Shown: positions 31,838 to 38,746 of the stretch, piece by piece
Position numbering within the stretch: the first letter of the stretch is position 1
Layout: the number at the start of each line of letters is the position of its first letter
Assembly (NCBI RefSeq): GCF_002741055.1
Contig: NZ_CP016809.1
Coordinates: 1,944,501-2,008,500 of the forward strand
Direction: 5' to 3'
Origin: Paenibacillus ihbetae
GTDB lineage: Bacteria > Bacillota > Bacilli > Paenibacillales > Paenibacillaceae
Length of the DNA stretch: 64,000 bases
Notes under the pieces: model-generated
Databases searched by the model: none
Seen by the model: only the letters and a program-made list of their open reading frames with translations
What the model was told of the DNA's origin: nothing
Made by a program: the position numbers and the translations under genes

Positions 31838-32035
31838 TTATAGTAATCGTCTTCCCATCATCATGATGGTATCCAGCAAAGCCTTCCATTTGCCTGCAGT
31901 CTTCGCGCTGCCTGCGGCAGCCGCTGCAGCTTCACTACGGCTGGCTTTCGTTTGTTGAGCCAACCTGCATCGTTCGAGTTCCTGGCGGAGATCGTTCACA
32001 TGCTGGATGGCAATATCTTCATTATTGATATTCAT
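31838..32035 (-). CDS. 65-residue hypothetical protein, third gene of sigma operon
   Basis: Not recognised. It begins at the ATG complementary to 32033-32035 with GAGGAA upstream, 19 bases after the stop of the repeat-protein gene, so it is probably in the same transcript. The N-terminal half (IQHVNDLRQELERCRLAQQ) looks like an amphipathic helix or short coiled coil. The middle is a run of seven alanines within 'SEAAAAAAAGSAKTAG'-type low complexity (exact run EAAAAAAG). The C-terminus is basic and Met-rich (TIMMMGRRLL). No signal peptide or membrane helix. Its presence at the end of the sigma operon is the only hint of function. Confidence 0.65.
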   Translation of the reverse strand: MNINNEDIAIQHVNDLRQELERCRLAQQTKASRSEAAAAAAGSAKTAGKWKALLDTIMMMGRRLL

Positions 32036-32054
32036 TTTATCTTCCTCATTTCTT

Positions 32055-33260
32055 TTATAGCGACAACATTCCGACATTACCGATACCTGCAAACTTCTCC
32101 TCCGTCCCCTTCACTATAATACTGCCACTCATGCTCCGAAGGTAAGGGTATAAAACACCTTTAATTCTTTTTTCCGCGATCATCACTTTCCCGAACAGAT
32201 CCAGGGAATGAAGCTTAGCCTCCAATACATCCTCCGTAACGTCGTCTTCCAGGATCAGCGTTCCTTCTACGATGAAGCTGGCCGGCTCCTTTAAGGCAAG
32301 CAATTGCTCCTTCGACCAGACTTCCTCTCCTTCTACGAATACGAACGCCTGCTCATAGCTGACGATTTCCGTATTCACATCCGGACAGCGTTCCCAGACC
32401 AGATCCTCGATATCTTCGCTGCAAATCACGATCGAGGACGATTGAATTCCGGCGATCGCGCGGCTGAACGCCTCCCTTGTCACGTCGGCATCAAGCACGA
32501 TGGGATGCTTGGTATATAATTTACGGTCCGCGAATCGGCGAATCGTTCGGGCGTTCAGTCTCAGCGTTTTCGTGACATGCTCGAACCCTGCAGGAATTAC
32601 TTTTACCTGGCCGTTGATCGACTTCATTTTGTCATAGAAATAGGGGCTCTGCTCCTCATGGATCATCGCCATGCCGTTCACATGGAGCGTTTCAAGCCGG
32701 GCGGCGAATTGTTCCATGTCCAAATCCTTCTCTAATTCAAGGACGCCGTTTACGACCAGATACCTGGGCTCCTTAAGCGAAGACAAATAAGCGTTGGTCA
32801 GCCGGAATTTCCCGGACTCGAACCGCAGCTCGGATTGATAAGCTTGAATGCTCGCTTCCGCTCCATCCATTTTGAGCAGCGATGCGGTGACGGCTCCCTC
32901 CAAATGCTTCGGAACATACACCTCGCCCCTAACTGCCATATGCAGCCCGCTATGCTCAAAAGCTTCAAGGCTGACATCCCGATCAATGATCACCGTGCCA
33001 TAAGTAAATACGTTCTCCGGCTGCTTGTGCTTAAAATACTCGGCGTTCAGTCTCAAAGTGCCTTTAAAAAAGCGGTAGCCTCTGGGAATCTCCAGCGTTT
33101 TGCCGATATTGCCGGCGTTCGTGAGCAGTGCCAGCAGATGGGCGGTCTCTGCCCGGTACAGCACCATGCCCACATTGTCGATCCGTTCAATGTTTTTCAC
33201 GCTTTCCTCAGTTGCCTCCGTAAGATCCAGCATACCCACATTGCCAATAATTCTGCTCAT
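32055..33260 (-). CDS. 401-residue protein made of five ~80-residue repeats, unknown function
   Basis: Not recognised as a named family. The protein opens with IIGNVGMLDL and closes with GIGNVGMLSL, and in between shows about five repeats of 75-82 residues. Each repeat has a core like 'VVNGVLELEKDLDMEQF', 'TYGTVIIDRDVSLEAF', 'HPIVLDADVTREAF' or 'VEGTLILEDDVTEDV', then an amphipathic stretch and 'G.(V/A)MI.E'. The pattern of short hydrophobic strands separated by Gly and Asp suggests a beta-rich scaffold. No signal peptide. Its ATG overlaps the stop of the sigma factor gene (ATGA), so it is translationally coupled to it; an anti-sigma or regulated structural role is conceivable but unproved. 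Confidence 0.8.
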   Translation of the reverse strand: MSRIIGNVGMLDLTEATEESVKNIERIDNVGMVLYRAETAHLLALLTNAGNIGKTLEIPRGYRFFKGTLRLNAEYFKHKQPENVFTYGTVIIDRDVSLEAFEHSGLHMAVRGEVYVPKHLEGAVTASLLKMDGAEASIQAYQSELRFESGKFRLTNAYLSSLKEPRYLVVNGVLELEKDLDMEQFAARLETLHVNGMAMIHEEQSPYFYDKMKSINGQVKVIPAGFEHVTKTLRLNARTIRRFADRKLYTKHPIVLDADVTREAFSRAIAGIQSSSIVICSEDIEDLVWERCPDVNTEIVSYEQAFVFVEGEEVWSKEQLLALKEPASFIVEGTLILEDDVTEDVLEAKLHSLDLFGKVMIAEKRIKGVLYPYLRSMSGSIIVKGTEEKFAGIGNVGMLSL

Positions 33261-33724
33261 TTCATATCTTCCTCCCAATAGGTTCTTAATTTCTTGATGG
33301 CAGCCTGCAGCTTGTAACGGACCGTGGCGGCTGGCAGCCCAAGCTGGTCACCGATCTCTTGACTGGACATGCCGAGCCAGTAGCGCTTAAACACAATATC
33401 GCTTTGGGACTGCGGCAGGCGGCCCAGCCATTCCGTGGTCTCCATATCAAGGTTCGGCACGGACAGCAATGTGGCATCCAGATCATCATCCCAGGGAAGC
33501 AGCCGTTTTTCCCGGCGGGTAATGTCGATCAGACGATTCTTGATGACCCTGAAAAACCAAGCCTTCTGCTTGTGGAGCGGCCACTGTGCCAGCTGCGGCT
33601 CCTTCATCGCCTTGATGAAGGCGTCCTGCACCAGATCGTCAGCTTCGTACGCGTGCTTTGCGACCGACCGGGCATAGCGCCGGACATCCTCCTTCAAATT
33701 TTCGTACAGCTCATTTACGTCCAT
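33257..33724 (-). CDS. RNA polymerase sigma factor, ECF-like sigma-70
   Basis: A 155-residue sigma factor with only regions 2 and 4. Region 2: 'ADDLVQDAFIKAMKEP', 'KAWFFRVIKNRLIDITRREKR' (in parts). Region 4: 'LPQSQSDIVFKRYWLGMSSQEIGDQLGLPAATVRYKLQAAIKKL' (in parts), a clear helix-turn-helix for the -35 box. The ATG at 33722-33724 is preferred because GAGG lies six bases before it; another ATG twelve bases earlier is too near its only ribosome-like site. Unlike most ECF genes it is not followed by a recognisable membrane anti-sigma gene but by the repeat protein. Its promoters are unknown. Confidence 0.9.
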   Translation of the reverse strand: MDVNELYENLKEDVRRYARSVAKHAYEADDLVQDAFIKAMKEPQLAQWPLHKQKAWFFRVIKNRLIDITRREKRLLPWDDDLDATLLSVPNLDMETTEWLGRLPQSQSDIVFKRYWLGMSSQEIGDQLGLPAATVRYKLQAAIKKLRTYWEEDMK

Positions 33725-33814
33725 AGCCGACCTCATATCTTCCGTTTTCGTCTTTCTTGTTAATATAACGTTTGAGCGACTGCAACTGATGGATGGATTT
33801 TAAATATTTTTTTG

Positions 33815-33847
33815 AAAAAAAAACACGCCAGCCCTTCGGCCAGCGCG
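33815..33847 (-). terminator. Terminator between the mini-peptide genes and the sigma gene
   Basis: CACGCCAGCC (33824-33833), loop CTTC, GGCCAGCGCG (33838-33847). In the minus-strand RNA the ten pairs (some G-U) are followed by nine U. The peptide genes therefore form their own short transcript, ending before the sigma factor gene. Confidence 0.8.
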
Positions 33848-33863
33848 CAAGCATTTTTTCACA

Positions 33864-33959
33864 CTAATCCCAGATAGAGAACAGTACCAACAAGATAGCG
33901 GCAATTCCGAGCCAAAGCGTATGCTTCGATGCCCAGGCGGAACGTAAATCTTCATTCAT
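33864..33959 (-). CDS. 31-residue membrane peptide ending in Trp-Asp
   Basis: A short frame with a strong GGAGG nine bases before its ATG (complement of 33957-33959). The peptide has a charged head (MNEDLRSAWASKH), one hydrophobic segment (LWLGIAAILLVLFSIW) and ends in Asp. Together with the 26-residue peptide 54 bases upstream it forms a transcript bounded by an operator-bearing promoter and a terminator. No known family is recognised. Good ribosome sites on both frames and the shared C-terminal Trp-Asp argue that they are real. Toxin, transporter helper or membrane stress sensor are all possible and none is shown. Confidence 0.65.
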   Translation of the reverse strand: MNEDLRSAWASKHTLWLGIAAILLVLFSIWD

Positions 33960-34013
33960 AGATCCAAGCCTCCTTTTCAATGATTTGTAATAGACTGCTG
34001 CCTTTGTAGCGTC

Positions 34014-34094
34014 TTAATCCCACCAGCTAAGCATTGACAGCAGAATGATGGCGGCCAGTACGCCGTCCACAAACTTCAATTGAAGTTTGGCCAT
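34014..34094 (-). CDS. 26-residue membrane peptide ending in Trp-Trp-Asp
   Basis: Begins at the ATG complementary to 34092-34094, eight bases after AAGGAGG; an ATG six bases earlier is too close. Short basic head (MAKLQLKF), hydrophobic stretch VDGVLAAIILLSMLSWW and final Asp. It shares layout and the terminal W-D with the 31-residue peptide that follows, although the rest differs. A promoter whose -35 box lies within a TetR-type operator is about 100 bases upstream. Too short for standard gene finders, so probably unannotated in databases. Confidence 0.65.
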   Translation of the reverse strand: MAKLQLKFVDGVLAAIILLSMLSWWD

Positions 34095-34127
34095 TCGCAT
34101 CACCTCCTTTTTAGAGTCAAGTAGTAG

Positions 34128-34188
34128 GTGAATAAGTGAATAGGTGAACAGGCTAAGCGCATAAAGTTCATAAGTTCATAAGTTCATT
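34128..34188. repeat. Two sets of triple 8-bp repeats in the mini-peptide leader
   Basis: GTGAATAA, GTGAATAG, GTGAACAG lie head to tail at 34128-34151, and AGTTCATA, AGTTCATA, AGTTCATT at 34165-34188. Both sets fall in the predicted 5' leader of the mini-peptide transcript, between promoter and ribosome site. The -10 box overlaps the end of the second set. Confidence 0.75.
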
Positions 34189-34213
34189 ATCCTTAGTATT
34201 ATTGATTGATCAA
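34186..34213 (-). promoter_or_regulatory. Promoter of the mini-peptide genes
   Basis: On the minus strand TTGATC (complement of 34208-34213) and GATAAT (34186-34191) are 16 bases apart. The -35 box lies within the TetR-type operator, so binding would exclude RNA polymerase. Confidence 0.55.
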
Positions 34214-34220
34214 TTACTAT
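34199..34220. promoter_or_regulatory. TetR-type operator, copy A (mini-peptides)
   Basis: TTATTGATTGATCAATTACT plus AT fits the palindrome TTAnTnATTGnnCAATnAnTAA shared by three sites, with one end mismatch. It lies 105 bases before the 26-residue peptide gene. Confidence 0.7.
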
Positions 34221-34272
34221 TAATGAAAATAAAAATGGGTATACATTACGCGTATGCTATAAGCTTGCTATT

Positions 34273-34309
34273 CGTACAATGCGTACAATGCATATTATTC
34301 GTACAATGC
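34273..34309. repeat. Three copies of CGTACAATGC
   Basis: Exact copies at 34273-34282, 34282-34291 and 34300-34309, just beyond the 3' end of the epimerase gene. Purpose unknown. Confidence 0.6.
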
Positions 34310-34311
34310 GT

Positions 34312-35274
34312 TCACTCTCCCTGCTTCTGCATCAGCCGCTGAATGGTCTCCTTAATCGCTTTTTCATGCGGCGTCCAAGATAAAGGTCCGATGAAGCGCT
34401 CGTATTTTTCCCCGCTCAGCACGAGCGGCTCTTCCGTAAGATACAGCATCTCCACGACCTCCTTCATTACGGGATTGAACAGGCCGATCAGGGATAACCC
34501 GATGCGTCCCAGCGGTATGACGGCTTTGCGGCTTCCGCTCGCCTCCTGAGCGATGCATACCAGTTCGCGGCCTGAAATGACACCAGGACCGGGAATGTGC
34601 CAGTTTTGCCCGTAAGCCTCCTCCTGAACGGCGATATCCAAAATCATCCGGGCCGCATCCGGCAAGTAGACATATTCGCGGGGAACCGTCATATTCCCGA
34701 TGAAGGCCGTAGGTTTGCCTGCTGCGATAGCCTCCATCGTCACGGATAGATAAGAAGCTTGCGCGGAGGGTCCGTAATAATCCGGTAACCGGGCGATCAA
34801 AGGGCGGGTACGCGGTTTCCAACGTGCCGAAAACAAAAGCTCCTCATAAGCGAGCCTTGTTTTGCCTTTTCGGGTATGCGGCCGCTTCGGATGCTCCTCC
34901 GTCGCTCTTTCCATCCTGCGTCGCCCATAGGGATAAATACCGTCCACGACCACCACTCTTGCATTCATCCGCTGCGCAGCCTTCATCACGGATTCCCCAA
35001 GTGGAAGCAGCCTCGATTCCATCTCGTGATACGGAATATTCGCGCTGTGAAAAATGACATCCGCGCCTTCGGCCGCCTGAATGATGTCCTCCGAATTAAA
35101 GGCATCCCCTGTGCGAAGCTTCAATAATGGGGAGCGGCCGAGCTCCTCGGCGAGCGCATTCAACTTGGTCATCGATCTGCCGAAGGCAATCGTTTCGATT
35201 CCTCTTTTGACCAATTCGGCTGTCAGTGGATTTCCTACTCCGCCCGTTGCACCCAGAACAATCGCTTTTTTCAT
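34312..35274 (-). CDS. NAD(P)-binding epimerase/dehydratase-like protein (extended SDR)
   Basis: A 320-residue protein with the Rossmann signature GATGGVGNPLTAEL close to the N-terminus and 'GADVIFHSANIPYHEM' and 'VVVDGIYPYGRR' further on; the catalytic Tyr-x-x-x-Lys pattern of classical SDRs is not obvious, so it is probably an atypical or NmrA-like member. Starts at the ATG at 35272-35274, nine bases after AAGGAGA; a TTG six bases earlier is too close. A TetR-type operator sits 27 bases upstream, identical in pattern to the one before the tetR gene. It is likely the main target of that repressor. Substrate unknown. Confidence 0.88.
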   Translation of the reverse strand: MKKAIVLGATGGVGNPLTAELVKRGIETIAFGRSMTKLNALAEELGRSPLLKLRTGDAFNSEDIIQAAEGADVIFHSANIPYHEMESRLLPLGESVMKAAQRMNARVVVVDGIYPYGRRRMERATEEHPKRPHTRKGKTRLAYEELLFSARWKPRTRPLIARLPDYYGPSAQASYLSVTMEAIAAGKPTAFIGNMTVPREYVYLPDAARMILDIAVQEEAYGQNWHIPGPGVISGRELVCIAQEASGSRKAVIPLGRIGLSLIGLFNPVMKEVVEMLYLTEEPLVLSGEKYERFIGPLSWTPHEKAIKETIQRLMQKQGE

Positions 35275-35300
35275 AATCAAACATCTCCTTTGTCGTGTTG

Positions 35301-35322
35301 TTATTGATTGACCAATTACTAA
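35301..35322. promoter_or_regulatory. TetR-type operator, copy B (epimerase gene)
   Basis: TTATTGATTGACCAATTACT followed by AA: a full match to TTAnTnATTGnnCAATnAnTAA, 27 bases before the epimerase start. Confidence 0.8.
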
Positions 35323-35499
35323 TGTTCAAAAAAATAATGCCGAACTCCAAATGACTGAAAAAACAGTGCTCTTACACTATAGTTGGGCAGACGTGACCTG
35401 CGGTTCGCTGTGCTCTCCGATAAAGCTGTTGCTGCAATCCGGGGGCGCCCCTCCCGATAAGGGGAAGGCATTCGCGGCGAGGCAAGCTTAGGACTCTCG

Positions 35500-35677
35500 C
35501 TGTACAGGGTGTGCATTAACGACGAATGAGTTTGGTACTCCTACTGTGCAGGGTGCGCATCGCGGTGAACGTAGCTTGCTCTCACTGTACGGGGCGCGCA
35601 TTCCGGGTGAACCTAACTTGGTGCTCCCACTGTACAGGAGCGCATTCGCGGTGAACGTAGCTTGCTCTCACGCAATT
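35500..35677. repeat. Degenerate tandem repeat, four copies of about 44 bp
   Basis: Copies starting with CTGT(A/G)C(A/G)GG at 35500, 35544, 35585 and 35630 (spacing 44, 41, 45). Typical body: GCGCATTCGCGGTGAACGTA then GCTTGCTCTCA. Copies two and four are most alike. The 450-base stretch between the epimerase and tetR genes holds this array and no gene that I can support. Confidence 0.7.
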
Positions 35678-35773
35678 ATGTCAGACCTTGCGGCTCGACG
35701 CTTTTGATGCCTCCATGGTGCAAAGCGCTGGGGCTGCACTCACCTTTACCCTTTCCCGGTGCCATCGGCAATC

Positions 35774-36289
35774 CTAACGCTTCGGCATGATGCTCGGCAT
35801 GTCCATGGCCATTGCGGCATTGCAGAGCATTCCCCTTGCAAGGAAATTGGAGACTCTCACTTCCGCATCCTGAAATCCGGCATGGATGAAGGCATTCTCC
35901 ACCAGCTCCTTTACCTCGCCCATTCCCTGCTGCATCGCTGCTCGAACAGGCGCATCCGAGATCGTTTGTGCCTGCATCTGCAGTAAGATTTCACTTCGAT
36001 GAGCAAGCATGATCTCCTCGTAAGCACGGATCAATCCCTCTTCGAGCTCCTGGGGCGGCGCCGAATCAATGACCTGTCGGAAGGCCTGAACAATCCGCTT
36101 CCAAGATACGGCCAGCGCTTCGACCAGCAGCGATTCCTTGGTGAAAAAACGGTACACGTAGGGCTGCGATATGGCTGCACGTTCGGCAACCTGTGCGGTT
36201 GTCGCACGATAATAGCCGATCTCTGCAAACACCTCGATTGCTGCTGCAACAATATCCTGACGTCGGTTCGCGGAGGCTTCGCGCGGCAT
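35774..36289 (-). CDS. TetR-family transcriptional repressor
   Basis: A 171-residue regulator. N-terminal helix-turn-helix: 'RRQDIVAAAIEVFAEIGYYRATTAQVAERAAISQPYVYRFFTKESLL' (in parts), fully typical of TetR. The C-terminal ligand domain (about 60-170) is helical and ends 'MAMDMPSIMPKR'. The ATG at 36287-36289 follows GGAG by eight bases. A 22-bp pseudo-palindrome just downstream of its own -10 box and two more copies before the epimerase and the mini-peptides define a small regulon. The inducer is not predictable; such repressors often sense hydrophobic drugs or fatty acids. Confidence 0.92.
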   Translation of the reverse strand: MPREASANRRQDIVAAAIEVFAEIGYYRATTAQVAERAAISQPYVYRFFTKESLLVEALAVSWKRIVQAFRQVIDSAPPQELEEGLIRAYEEIMLAHRSEILLQMQAQTISDAPVRAAMQQGMGEVKELVENAFIHAGFQDAEVRVSNFLARGMLCNAAMAMDMPSIMPKR

Positions 36290-36317
36290 ACGGATCACTC
36301 CTTTCAGAAGTTAATTA

Positions 36318-36339
36318 TTATTAATTGACCAATTACTAA
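36318..36339. promoter_or_regulatory. TetR-type operator, copy C (tetR gene)
   Basis: TTATTAATTGACCAATTACT followed by AA, a full match to TTAnTnATTGnnCAATnAnTAA. It lies about nine bases after the tetR -10 box, over the transcription start, so autorepression is expected. Confidence 0.8.
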
Positions 36340-36347
36340 CTGAAATC

Positions 36348-36376
36348 AGTATATGCGAATGAACCTCCAATTGCAA
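36348..36376 (-). promoter_or_regulatory. Promoter of the tetR gene
   Basis: On the minus strand TTGCAA (36371-36376) and TATACT (complement of 36348-36353) are 17 bases apart, immediately before operator copy C. Confidence 0.65.
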
Positions 36377-36643
36377 CAGTTATTTTTCATGATTTTCCAT
36401 TGGGTAAGGTTGCAGCTTGAGAACGAGATCCAAGCAAGGGGAATCGCTACTCAAATATTTCACTTTTAAATTTGCTATGTAACCACACCTAAATAAAGGA
36501 AATTCATGCGCGCTATCGAATGTTACTTACTATTACGCAATGCTTAAACCCCAATGCTCCTTAGACAGACAGTTGCGGAACAAAGGTGGGATAACAGTAG
36601 CAGCTCGAATCATTACTATGACAAATGAGGAGGAACTTTTGAA
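36377..36643. other. Intergenic stretch before the DinB gene, nothing recognised
   Basis: A/T-rich divergent region. I see no reading frame with a ribosome site, no clear palindrome and no cre site. It presumably carries the promoter of the DinB-family gene. Confidence 0.4.
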
Positions 36644-37114
36644 ATGTACTTGGAAACCGAACAACAGTTAAAGCGATGGCTCCGTCATCGGGGTGTGCTG
36701 CAACAGCTGCTTGAAGAAGTACGGGACGAGCAGCTGGAATATAAGCCTTGGCCGAATGCTATGACATTAGGAAAATTGATTGTCCACATGGCCGCGTCTT
36801 CCGATATGTTCCTGCAATCGATCAAGCACGGGGCCTTCTCCCCGCCAACGTTCCCGACAGCCTTCGAATCGATCGGTGATATCCGGAAGATCGTTCAAGC
36901 CTCAACCAAGGCTACGGAACAAGGCTTTGCCGAGCTGACGGAAGCCCACTTGGAGCAGCCGCTGGATTTTAACGGCTTCGTGGCCCCCGGCTCCGTCTGG
37001 CTTGGCAACATGGTCGATCATGAGATCCACCACAAGGGACAACTGTTTACTTACGCCAGATCGGTCGGCATTGAAAAGATACCGTTTTTCATTGTTCAAC
37101 CGCCTAGAGCATAA
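36644..37114 (+). CDS. DinB-family protein
   Basis: A 156-residue four-helix bundle protein of the DinB/YfiT superfamily. Metal-binding His residues are in the expected places: 'LGKLIVHMAASSDMFLQ' and, near the end, 'MVDHEIHHKGQLFTYARSVG' with the HxxxHHxGQ pattern. GAGGAGG lies about ten bases before the ATG. In bacteria related proteins act as thiol S-transferases (bacillithiol- or mycothiol-dependent) or are of unknown role. A strong terminator follows. It is monocistronic. Confidence 0.9.
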   Translation: MYLETEQQLKRWLRHRGVLQQLLEEVRDEQLEYKPWPNAMTLGKLIVHMAASSDMFLQSIKHGAFSPPTFPTAFESIGDIRKIVQASTKATEQGFAELTEAHLEQPLDFNGFVAPGSVWLGNMVDHEIHHKGQLFTYARSVGIEKIPFFIVQPPRA

Positions 37115-37167
37115 GGTGTGAATCTAGAAAAGCGGCCAGGGCTGGCAAGGTGGTGTCCTGGGTTGAT

Positions 37168-37236
37168 GGCTGCAAGTCCCTTTTGTTGGCCTCGCGGGCG
37201 CCCTTTTCCGGGCTGCAAGTCCCTTTTCGGGACTTG
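37168..37236. repeat. Duplicated GGCTGCAAGTCCCTTTT with hairpin
   Basis: Two copies at 37168-37184 and 37211-37227 (period 43). The second extends into the hairpin CAAGTCCC TTTTC GGGACTTG (37216-37236). It lies between the DinB gene and the terminator. Confidence 0.6.
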
Positions 37237-37280
37237 TCAGGCCCCGCGGGGGCGCCGCAAAGCGCTCTCGCGCCCCGCCA

Positions 37281-37321
37281 AAAAGCCGGTTATTCCCACG
37301 TCTCGGGAATAACCGGCTTTT
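37281..37321. terminator. Bidirectional terminator, 17-bp perfect stem
   Basis: AAAAGCCGGTTATTCCC (37281-37297) and its exact complement (37305-37321) with a seven-base loop and U-runs in both directions, between the convergent DinB and nucleoside phosphorylase genes. Confidence 0.9.
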
Positions 37322-37326
37322 ATCCA

Positions 37327-38058
37327 TCACCCTTGCTTGGCCAGCTTCGCAACGGCCATCAAGGCCGCGTGAATCTCGCGCTCCACGGCATCCGACACGA
37401 CATTCGTGTTCGGATCATACTCCGCCGCGAGATCCGCGTCCGCGAAGCCGTCGATCGCCACGATCGCACCGGCGCGGACGCCGCGGAGGGCGGCCACTAC
37501 ATAAAGCGCCGAGATTTCCATCTCTACGCCGAGCGCGCCGGCCGCCTTATATTTCGGATGGGGGAATTCCTCCACCCCGTTAAAGAATACATCCAGCGTC
37601 ACCGTCATCCCTTTGCGGACGACGCCCTCGCCTAACGAGAGCGCGGATTCGTACAGCGCCTCCGCGACCGCACTATCCGCCACAGCCGGGAAGCCTTCCG
37701 GCACCAGCTGCTTCGTCAGCCCGTCCGTGCGGATCGCCGCAGTGCTGACGACCAGGCTCCCCGCCGGCGTATCCGCCCGGTAGGAGCCGGCGGTGCCAAC
37801 GCGGATCAGCGTCTTCGCACCGGCGCGAATCAGCTCCTCGAAGCAGACGGCCGCCCCCGGGCAGCCGACGCCGTGGCTCGTCACGGCCAGCTCCACGCCT
37901 TCGTACGTCCCTACGAAGGTCCGGTACTCGCGGCTGAACGCCAGCTCGCGCGCGCCTTCCAGCTTGCGGGAGATGACTTCCGCGCGCTTCGGATCGCCGC
38001 AGACCACGACGAATTCGGGAATATCCTCCGAGTTCACTTGCAATATCGGCATCAACAT
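37327..38058 (-). CDS. Nucleoside phosphorylase (uridine phosphorylase-like)
   Basis: A 243-residue cytosolic PNP/UDP family enzyme that splits nucleosides with phosphate into base and ribose-1-phosphate. Visible motifs: 'VCGDPKRAEVISRKLEGAREL' in parts (phosphate-binding GDP-R), 'TSHGVGCPGAAVCFEELIRAGAKTLIRVGTAGSY' in parts (phosphate/ribose site), and 'GALGVEMEISALYVVAALRG' with the ribose-binding Met-Glu pair. The closest style is uridine phosphorylase/DeoD. The start at 38056-38058 is two bases from the preceding gene's stop and has AAGGAG upstream. It ends an operon that begins with a nucleoside-type BMP transporter, which supports nucleoside salvage. Confidence 0.9.
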   Translation of the reverse strand: MLMPILQVNSEDIPEFVVVCGDPKRAEVISRKLEGARELAFSREYRTFVGTYEGVELAVTSHGVGCPGAAVCFEELIRAGAKTLIRVGTAGSYRADTPAGSLVVSTAAIRTDGLTKQLVPEGFPAVADSAVAEALYESALSLGEGVVRKGMTVTLDVFFNGVEEFPHPKYKAAGALGVEMEISALYVVAALRGVRAGAIVAIDGFADADLAAEYDPNTNVVSDAVEREIHAALMAVAKLAKQG

Positions 38059-38059
38059 A

Positions 38060-38746
38060 TCAATCAAACTCCTTACGTGTCCATTCGTCTTCCGGTATAT
38101 CCAGCGCTTCGCCGCTAAACCGCTGCTCCTTGAACGGATCGGCTTCATTATGAAAGCCGTTGCGTTCCCAAAAGCCCGGCCGGTCCTCCGCCATAAACTC
38201 AATGCCGCGCAGCCACTTTGCGCTCTTCCAGAAATACCGATGCGGCACGACCGTGCGCAGCGGCCAGCCATGCTTGTCCGTCAGGGGCTCCCCGTTGAAG
38301 CGGTATGCAAGCAGCACATCGTCCCGGAGCAGATCCTCGATCGGCACGTTCGTGTCATAGTCCGGATCCGCATGGAACATTACGTACTTGGCTTCCGGCT
38401 TGACCTTCAGCTCCTTCAGGAAATCCCGAAACAGCACCCCTTCCCACACCGTATCGAATTTCGACCAGCGCGTGACGCAGTGAATATCGGTTTGGAGCGT
38501 TACCGTCTTCATCGCCATAATATCCTCATACGAAAATGTCCGCTCCTCCTCGACTTCGCCGAATACCCGCAGCGTCCATGCAGACATGTCATAAACCGGT
38601 ACCTCCCCTTCATGCAAAATGGGGAACTTCTCGGTCAGCGTCTGTCCGGGAGGCAGCTTGGCTCGCTGCTCCTCGGTCAGGTTGCCGGCCGCGACCGGCT
38701 TCATTTTTTTCAAACGTTCCGCTTTCTTGTGCACCTTTTCGTTCAT
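38060..38746 (-). CDS. Molybdopterin-dependent oxidoreductase (sulfite oxidase-like, YuiH type)
   Basis: A 228-residue protein of the oxidoreductase molybdopterin-binding domain. The Mo-ligating Cys is in 'TDIHCVTRWSKFDTVWEGV', and 'GWPLRTVVPHRYFWKSAKWLRGIEF' (in parts) is the conserved pterin pocket. No Tat or other signal peptide is seen, so it appears cytosolic, like B. subtilis YuiH. The start is uncertain: AAGGAG directly abuts the ATG at 38744-38746, so a downstream GTG or upstream TTG may be used. It lies between the ABC permease (53 bases) and the nucleoside phosphorylase (1 base). The substrate is unknown. Confidence 0.88.
   Translation of the reverse strand: MNEKVHKKAERLKKMKPVAAGNLTEEQRAKLPPGQTLTEKFPILHEGEVPVYDMSAWTLRVFGEVEEERTFSYEDIMAMKTVTLQTDIHCVTRWSKFDTVWEGVLFRDFLKELKVKPEAKYVMFHADPDYDTNVPIEDLLRDDVLLAYRFNGEPLTDKHGWPLRTVVPHRYFWKSAKWLRGIEFMAEDRPGFWERNGFHNEADPFKEQRFSGEALDIPEDEWTRKEFD

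Follow-up and report, generated by a model that had tools for sequence, protein, structure and literature searches.

The described systems closest to the one reported here involve LmrB, a DHA2-type pump, SoxR, a MerR-type regulator, and Act, the redox-active antibiotic actinorhodin. According to the accessible text of the respective papers, QdoR and LmrA (YxaF/LmrA) of Bacillus subtilis are flavonoid-responsive TetR repressors (PMC8481877), and the SoxR regulon of Streptomyces coelicolor, whose expression depends on SoxR and Act, comprises the NAD-dependent epimerase/dehydratase EcaC, a quinone oxidoreductase, a flavoprotein reductase and an ABC transporter (PMC4146615). Transporter-modulating small proteins are represented by MgtR (30 amino acids, aa), MgtU (28 aa), MgtS (31 aa) and AcrZ (49 aa) (PMC10710835). 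Here, we describe a locus at positions 33,864-36,376 of a 64,000-nt stretch of Paenibacillus ihbetae contig NZ_CP016809.1 (the whole stretch is referred to below as the window), in which one TetR repressor very probably controls itself, an epimerase-type short-chain dehydrogenase/reductase (SDR) and two very short peptides via three copies of a 22-bp operator; this concerns the regulatory core, peptides included, and not the function of the peptides.

The locus resembles the QdoR/LmrA system in that a TetR autoregulator has one operator downstream of its own -10 box, a comparison of promoter architecture alone, in the two operators of the qdoI promoter, as found before many SDR genes in the relatives studied here, and in regulon content, the QdoR/LmrA regulon including lmrAB; the two differ in their targets, those of QdoR/LmrA being a quercetin dioxygenase and lmrAB in the accessible text, with no SDR or peptide pair mentioned there (PMC8481877). 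The likeness to the SoxR regulon lies in gene content, as judged by the description of the enzymes, whereas the regulator here is a TetR_N protein rather than SoxR, and the accessible text mentions no peptides in the SoxR regulon (PMC4146615). MgtR, MgtU, MgtS and AcrZ fall in the size class of the peptides, the link to a transporter at our locus being the gene neighbourhood of one genome of another genus (G337); as far as the accessible text describes them, they are under other regulators (PMC10710835). Among the literature matches listed (in several lists the best 15 of 62, 8 of 150 or 6 of 17, with few subscription papers covered), apparently no paper deals with this system or its operator core. 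The features of the locus are as follows.

36348-36376, minus strand: tetR promoter, TTGCAA-N17-TATACT, with the operator starting 8 bp past the -10 box
36318-36339, no strand: operator 1, no mismatches, over the tetR transcription start region; all 11 close loci have it with at most one mismatch
35774-36289, minus strand: tetR, TetR_N repressor, 171 aa from an ATG led by a Shine-Dalgarno (SD) sequence; a 174-aa form starts from GTG at 36298
35301-35322, no strand: operator 2, no mismatches, 5' of the epimerase gene
34312-35280, minus strand: NAD-dependent epimerase/dehydratase-type SDR (PF01370), TTG at 35280, MKKAIVLG start at 35274
34199-34220, no strand: operator 3, one mismatch, at its end, 5' of the peptide pair
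34014-34094, minus strand: peptide 2 (pep2), first in the operon, 26 aa, MAKLQLKFVDGVLAAIILLSMLSWWD
33864-33959, minus strand: peptide 1 (pep1), second in the operon, 31 aa, MNEDLRSAWASKHTLWLGIAAILLVLFSIWD
33823-33848, minus strand: intrinsic terminator after the peptide operon

The initial annotation had placed three copies of one palindrome in the window, the one at 34199-34220 with a single end mismatch, and a scan of the window and the genome with the 22-bp pattern TTAnTnATTGnnCAATnAnTAA found them exactly so. When up to three mismatches were allowed, dinucleotide-shuffled windows gave a mean of 0.14 matches, and three matches were reached in 0 of 100 shuffles. The P. ihbetae genome as a whole (a single contig of 6,593,819 bases) holds no further site at up to two mismatches; the reversed control pattern yielded two sites at this threshold and none at up to one mismatch. 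In our sample of 100 genomes of the genus, 53 carry the operator at up to one mismatch (93 forward sites versus 26 for the reversed control). The surroundings of tetR were then covered by 122 loci, window included (82 + 40; some genomes contribute two), a non-random set picked by similarity and diversity that leaves out eight further tetR stretches (one being the L093 locus) and short ones; the 11 closest loci, again with the window, form the close set. The operator lies within -200 to +1000 of tetR in 111 of the 122 loci at up to two mismatches and in 79 at up to one, while the flanking DNA outside -200 to +2300 holds two sites (up to two mismatches) in 943,647 bp. Chance operators are thus ruled out by the window shuffles, the genome-wide count and the flanking background. 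The majority base per position over 212 sites is TTAGTGATTGATCAATCACTAA, and in many relatives two operators stand 40-50 bp apart 5' of the SDR gene. TetR itself was detected in 78 of the 100 genus genomes (E <= 1e-10), and the analysis yields a precise 22-bp operator for a TetR group found in 255 of the 394 genomes of our family sample (E <= 1e-20).

The genes named at the outset, a TetR repressor, an NAD-dependent epimerase/dehydratase-type SDR and two micro open reading frames (ORFs), were all recovered. The tetR product matches TetR_N (PF00440) with 39 bits against a cut-off of 24, and its AlphaFold2 model has the TetR fold with a mean predicted local distance difference test score of 92.6; comparison with other proteins returned many tied TetR rows without indication of a ligand class. 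Among the rows listed, the FadR-type TetR repressors (Bacillus 3whb and 5gp9, Clostridium 6azh) are 13-17% identical to it, and identity with the Bacillus FadR equivalog was rejected (NF053878, 39.9 bits versus a cut-off of 200). The palindromic operator is present at tetR's own promoter, and this promoter with its operator spacing is recognizable by eye in 11 of 11 close loci, with few single-base changes. The predicted operator over the tetR start stands, but the predicted placement of the operator on the -35 box of the peptides is not conserved. A peptide promoter, TTGATC-N16-GATAAT, is present in the window and partly kept in G030 and G010; by eye it was unseen in the other four intact-pair loci, so that this placement is not general.

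Several minor observations concern tetR and its surroundings. A DinB-family gene (36644-37114, plus strand), without an operator of its own, diverges from tetR in 9 loci of the close set of 11, the window among them. The gap between tetR and the epimerase gene contains imperfect 26-27-nt direct repeats, three copies each (35463-35671), and is longer in the window, G030 and G010 than in the other close loci. In G013 (L124:3163-4729), a distant TetR (34%) is accompanied by one-mismatch operators 5' of its own gene and of a gene for a 303-aa protein without a Pfam match. A PD40 beta-propeller gene replaces the SDR after tetR at L163:4524-6314 (Pfam) and L164:599-2035 (by eye).

An SDR with more than 50% identity follows tetR in 77 of the 122 loci, and 70 of these 77 have an operator (up to three mismatches) within 120 bp upstream. 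Judging from these sequence comparisons, the TetR-operator-SDR core is widespread in the family and of a known kind. The claim that the make-up of the regulon was undescribed hence applies to one component: the core recurs, and the peptide pair is the new element in it. The epimerase is a member of the regulon in the window, but it is not obligatory, being gone from the G065 locus and having a DHA2-type pump in its place in G337. A repeat with a 9-nt period (34260-34314, five overlapping 19-nt copies) lies at the 3' end of this gene in the window, immediately ahead of operator 3.

An important question is whether the two micro-ORFs are genes at all or chance ORFs in a leader/terminator region. 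They are very short, and neither the 38-aa nor the 29-aa peptide form has a Pfam or NCBIfam match, such short proteins being poorly covered. Against their chance origin stand perfect ribosome-binding sites (AAGGAGGT and AAGGAGGC), conserved spacing, the recurrence of the pair in a second genus and a pooled ratio of nonsynonymous to synonymous polymorphism (pN/pS) far below 1 (seven genomes): for pep2, 0.15 within clades and 0.25 between them, and for pep1, 0.33 in either comparison, with single pairs of the latter reaching a dN/dS (the corresponding substitution ratio) of 0.58. A scan of 82 loci (857 kb, both strands) for perfect-SD micro-ORFs, using a filter built from the peptide family itself (hydrophobic, ending [WFYI][DNEG]), returned 16 ORFs that form exactly eight pairs with a spacing of 52-58 nt; the shuffled control gave 0.2 ORFs and no pairs per set, and a looser SD requirement gave 22 sense and 2 antisense ORFs. 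The 40 further tetR loci contained single chance-like micro-ORFs and no pair. The low pN/pS and the paired perfect-SD scan rule out chance ORFs for practical purposes, leaving that explanation a negligible probability, and on these sequence patterns the two micro-ORFs are genuine genes. When the profiles of pep1 and pep2 were compared, the alignment was confined to the last 10 residues (probability 13.8%, E 0.002). The terminator scan (one found, 2.9 expected in the shuffled region) is not significant alone; support comes from conservation instead, as a stem occurs at the same place in relatives (by eye). Proteins of fewer than 40 residues are easily overlooked.

Co-occurrence of the peptides with tetR and the operator in related genomes, proposed earlier as a check, was found in seven genus genomes and at one locus of another genus. 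Within the 100 genus genomes, pep1 occurs in eight (nine listed, one a chance match; the G069 copy is truncated), pep2 in seven and both in seven, window included, always beside this tetR, and no genus peptide is farther than 2.5 kb from the start of one of the closest tetR orthologues. A pattern search of one genome for each of 84,980 species, from which records near the window were possibly left out, matched 36 stretches; four were confirmed, in P. lactis, P. campinasensis, P. lautus and P. glucanolyticus. An order-wide sample gave 6 of 305, all within the window's clade, and thus no addition. Phage and plasmid collections, searched for pep1 only, gave nothing useful. Several matches were dropped as chance or unrelated: weak pep2 profile matches in 8 of 15 positive genomes (E 0.009-0.048), many pep1 profile matches covering residues 2-23 or 3-23 in a frame that was mostly 93 aa long, together with other weak ones, and the peptide matches in G088, G251, G352 and G365.

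The eighth pair, in G337 (L136), is diverged (39% and 42% identity) and was initially a weak profile match (E 0.02); with G337 included in the pep1 profile, it is the sole convincing pep1 in 51 genomes of its genus. The order there is operator, TetR (47%), two operators (two mismatches), DHA2-type major facilitator superfamily (MFS) gene, pep2-like ORF, perfect operator, pep1-like ORF and SDR. The pep2-like ORF overlaps the end of the MFS gene, which is assigned to the DHA2 type by TIGR00711 above the cut-off, and the two peptides end in SWID and TFWD.

Even among the closest relatives, the peptides come and go. G051 and G069 retain only a 3' fragment of pep1, and G070 and G061 have no recognizable peptide. 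Operator 3 without an intact pair has no mismatches in G051, one in G070, two in G061 and more than three in G069; by eye, a terminator-like stem follows in all four, in G061 without a T-run. In a concatenated tree of five proteins, G069 and G070 are grouped (support 91), together with G051 (75), and G061 stands apart. The peptides were thus likely lost on two or more occasions while the operator stayed in place; this is likely rather than proved, because the other branches have supports of 51-64 and only two of the five proteins were available to place G061. G065 has no SDR between operators 2 and 3; there, the peptide genes come immediately after tetR. Remnants are seen in two genomes: G096, which has no TetR at E <= 1e-10, retains the end of pep1 along with what by eye resembles the remains of an operator, and in G177 an out-of-frame pep1 remnant lies away from its tetR.

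Such histories would also suit a peptide operon under other regulation, with operator 3 as the leftover of a duplicated operator: operators may serve as recombination points, as in G065, and operator 3 (up to two mismatches) is kept without an intact pair in three close loci. We consider this improbable, since an operator at up to two mismatches precedes pep2 in seven of seven genus pairs and a perfect one lies inside the G337 pair, against a background of 2 per 0.94 Mb. Control of the peptides by TetR together with tetR and the SDR remains our preferred reading, and the following points count against it. A near-consensus operator is missing from the tested interval in 11 of the 122 tetR loci; no conserved promoter was recognized by eye at operators 2 and 3 across the close loci; none of the three genomic sites in P. 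ihbetae is at a transporter; and the pair, carried by 8 of the 122 loci, is missing from 114, and 4 of the 11 closest have it truncated or not at all. On these last counts, the peptides are useful at times yet dispensable. The compact regulon of the initial annotation accordingly persists as three transcription units that include two membrane-type peptides, but neither the epimerase nor the peptides are obligatory; the latter belong to the regulon in the window and are optional elsewhere, with no intact pair in four of the 11 close loci.

What the regulon may serve is suggested by its neighbours in relatives. Operators stand 5' of Flavodoxin_2 reductases in L115, L116 and L119 (in L089 by eye), and in L158 the reductase comes directly after tetR. 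In L120 and L113, an operator precedes an SDR paralogue, behind which come another operator and the gene for a multicopper oxidase (L120) or for an SRPBCC protein (L113); L122 has an operator-preceded SDR-DHA2 MFS pair, L155 a likewise operator-preceded DHA2 MFS-multicopper oxidase-SDR cluster directly 3' of tetR, and L089 a DinB-like gene after an operator (by eye). G065, with one TetR (E <= 1e-10), has three genomic sites at up to one mismatch, namely before tetR, 245 bp before a flavodoxin reductase and at an SDR-oxidase pair, and its peptides have an additional site with two mismatches. A pump under a distal site in G051 (L118) was not counted because the operator lies 540 bp past the 3' end of that MFS gene. 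The flavodoxin-type reductases, multicopper oxidases, DHA2 efflux pumps and DinB-like neighbours suggest a role in xenobiotic or quinone detoxification, and the gene content, as far as it can point to a ligand, suggests a response to quinones, phenolics or antibiotic-like compounds.

A scheme for the locus can be proposed. TetR would bind the three palindrome copies at its own promoter, before the SDR and before the operon of the two peptides; it would be released by a hydrophobic ligand (probably a xenobiotic of the quinone, phenolic or antibiotic-like type), all three units would be expressed together, and the peptides would bind and modulate or protect a membrane protein, e.g., an efflux pump, during exposure. 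Each peptide has a single hydrophobic stretch (for the four computed, the best Kyte-Doolittle mean over 15 residues is 2.3-3.1), with basic residues nearer the N-terminus. Most have a WD tail, which ends six of seven pep2 (one ends in WWG) and seven of seven pep1. Tentatively, they may be single-pass membrane peptides with the N-terminus inside and with the modulating or protecting role of this scheme. We regard this as the likeliest single role, if still a guarded choice, because transporter-adjusting small proteins of 28-49 aa are known and pep2 overlaps the DHA2 gene in G337; about half of the probability goes to roles other than a modulator, a toxin-like peptide or a signal. As the P. ihbetae genome has only three sites and none at a transporter, a pump partner would lie outside the local regulon.

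Size and the lone hydrophobic stretch, along with repeated loss in which the operator remains, would also fit growth-arresting membrane peptides of the type I toxin kind, silenced by TetR and released under stress. We hold this to be unlikely: what is conserved is two peptides at a constant distance, not a toxin with its antisense RNA, the peptides are predicted to be co-regulated with detoxification-type genes, and no Rfam match at E <= 0.1 was found in 32000-38500, a search that an undescribed RNA would escape. ComS/XIP signals carry a double-tryptophan motif, and exported signals of the short-hydrophobic-peptide type would account for two hydrophobic peptides of 26 and 31 aa with a C-terminal tryptophan, pep2 ending in SWWD. 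We give this the least weight of the three roles, as the conserved WD tail, with the SWID and TFWD ends in G337, suits a membrane anchor at least equally, and no Rgg-type gene was noticed among the family-checked neighbours, where no search aimed at Rgg was made. On the modulator reading, the WD-tailed pair could perhaps represent a new family of small membrane proteins, induced by drugs or quinones, whose two members jointly act on an efflux pump or a different target in the membrane; the family would be attached to one TetR regulon group and repeatedly discarded. Selection, the shared operator, the fixed spacing and the adjoining end of a drug-pump-type gene in a second genus make the role of the peptides directly testable.

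Beyond the peptide locus, an ECF sigma factor gene and a gene for a protein of 407 aa, which contains NVGM-type repeats and matched neither Pfam nor NCBIfam, follow on the minus strand (32055-33278 with 33257-33736); G010 and G061 apart, the two occur together downstream of the peptide locus throughout the close set, i.e., in 9 of the 11 loci, window included.

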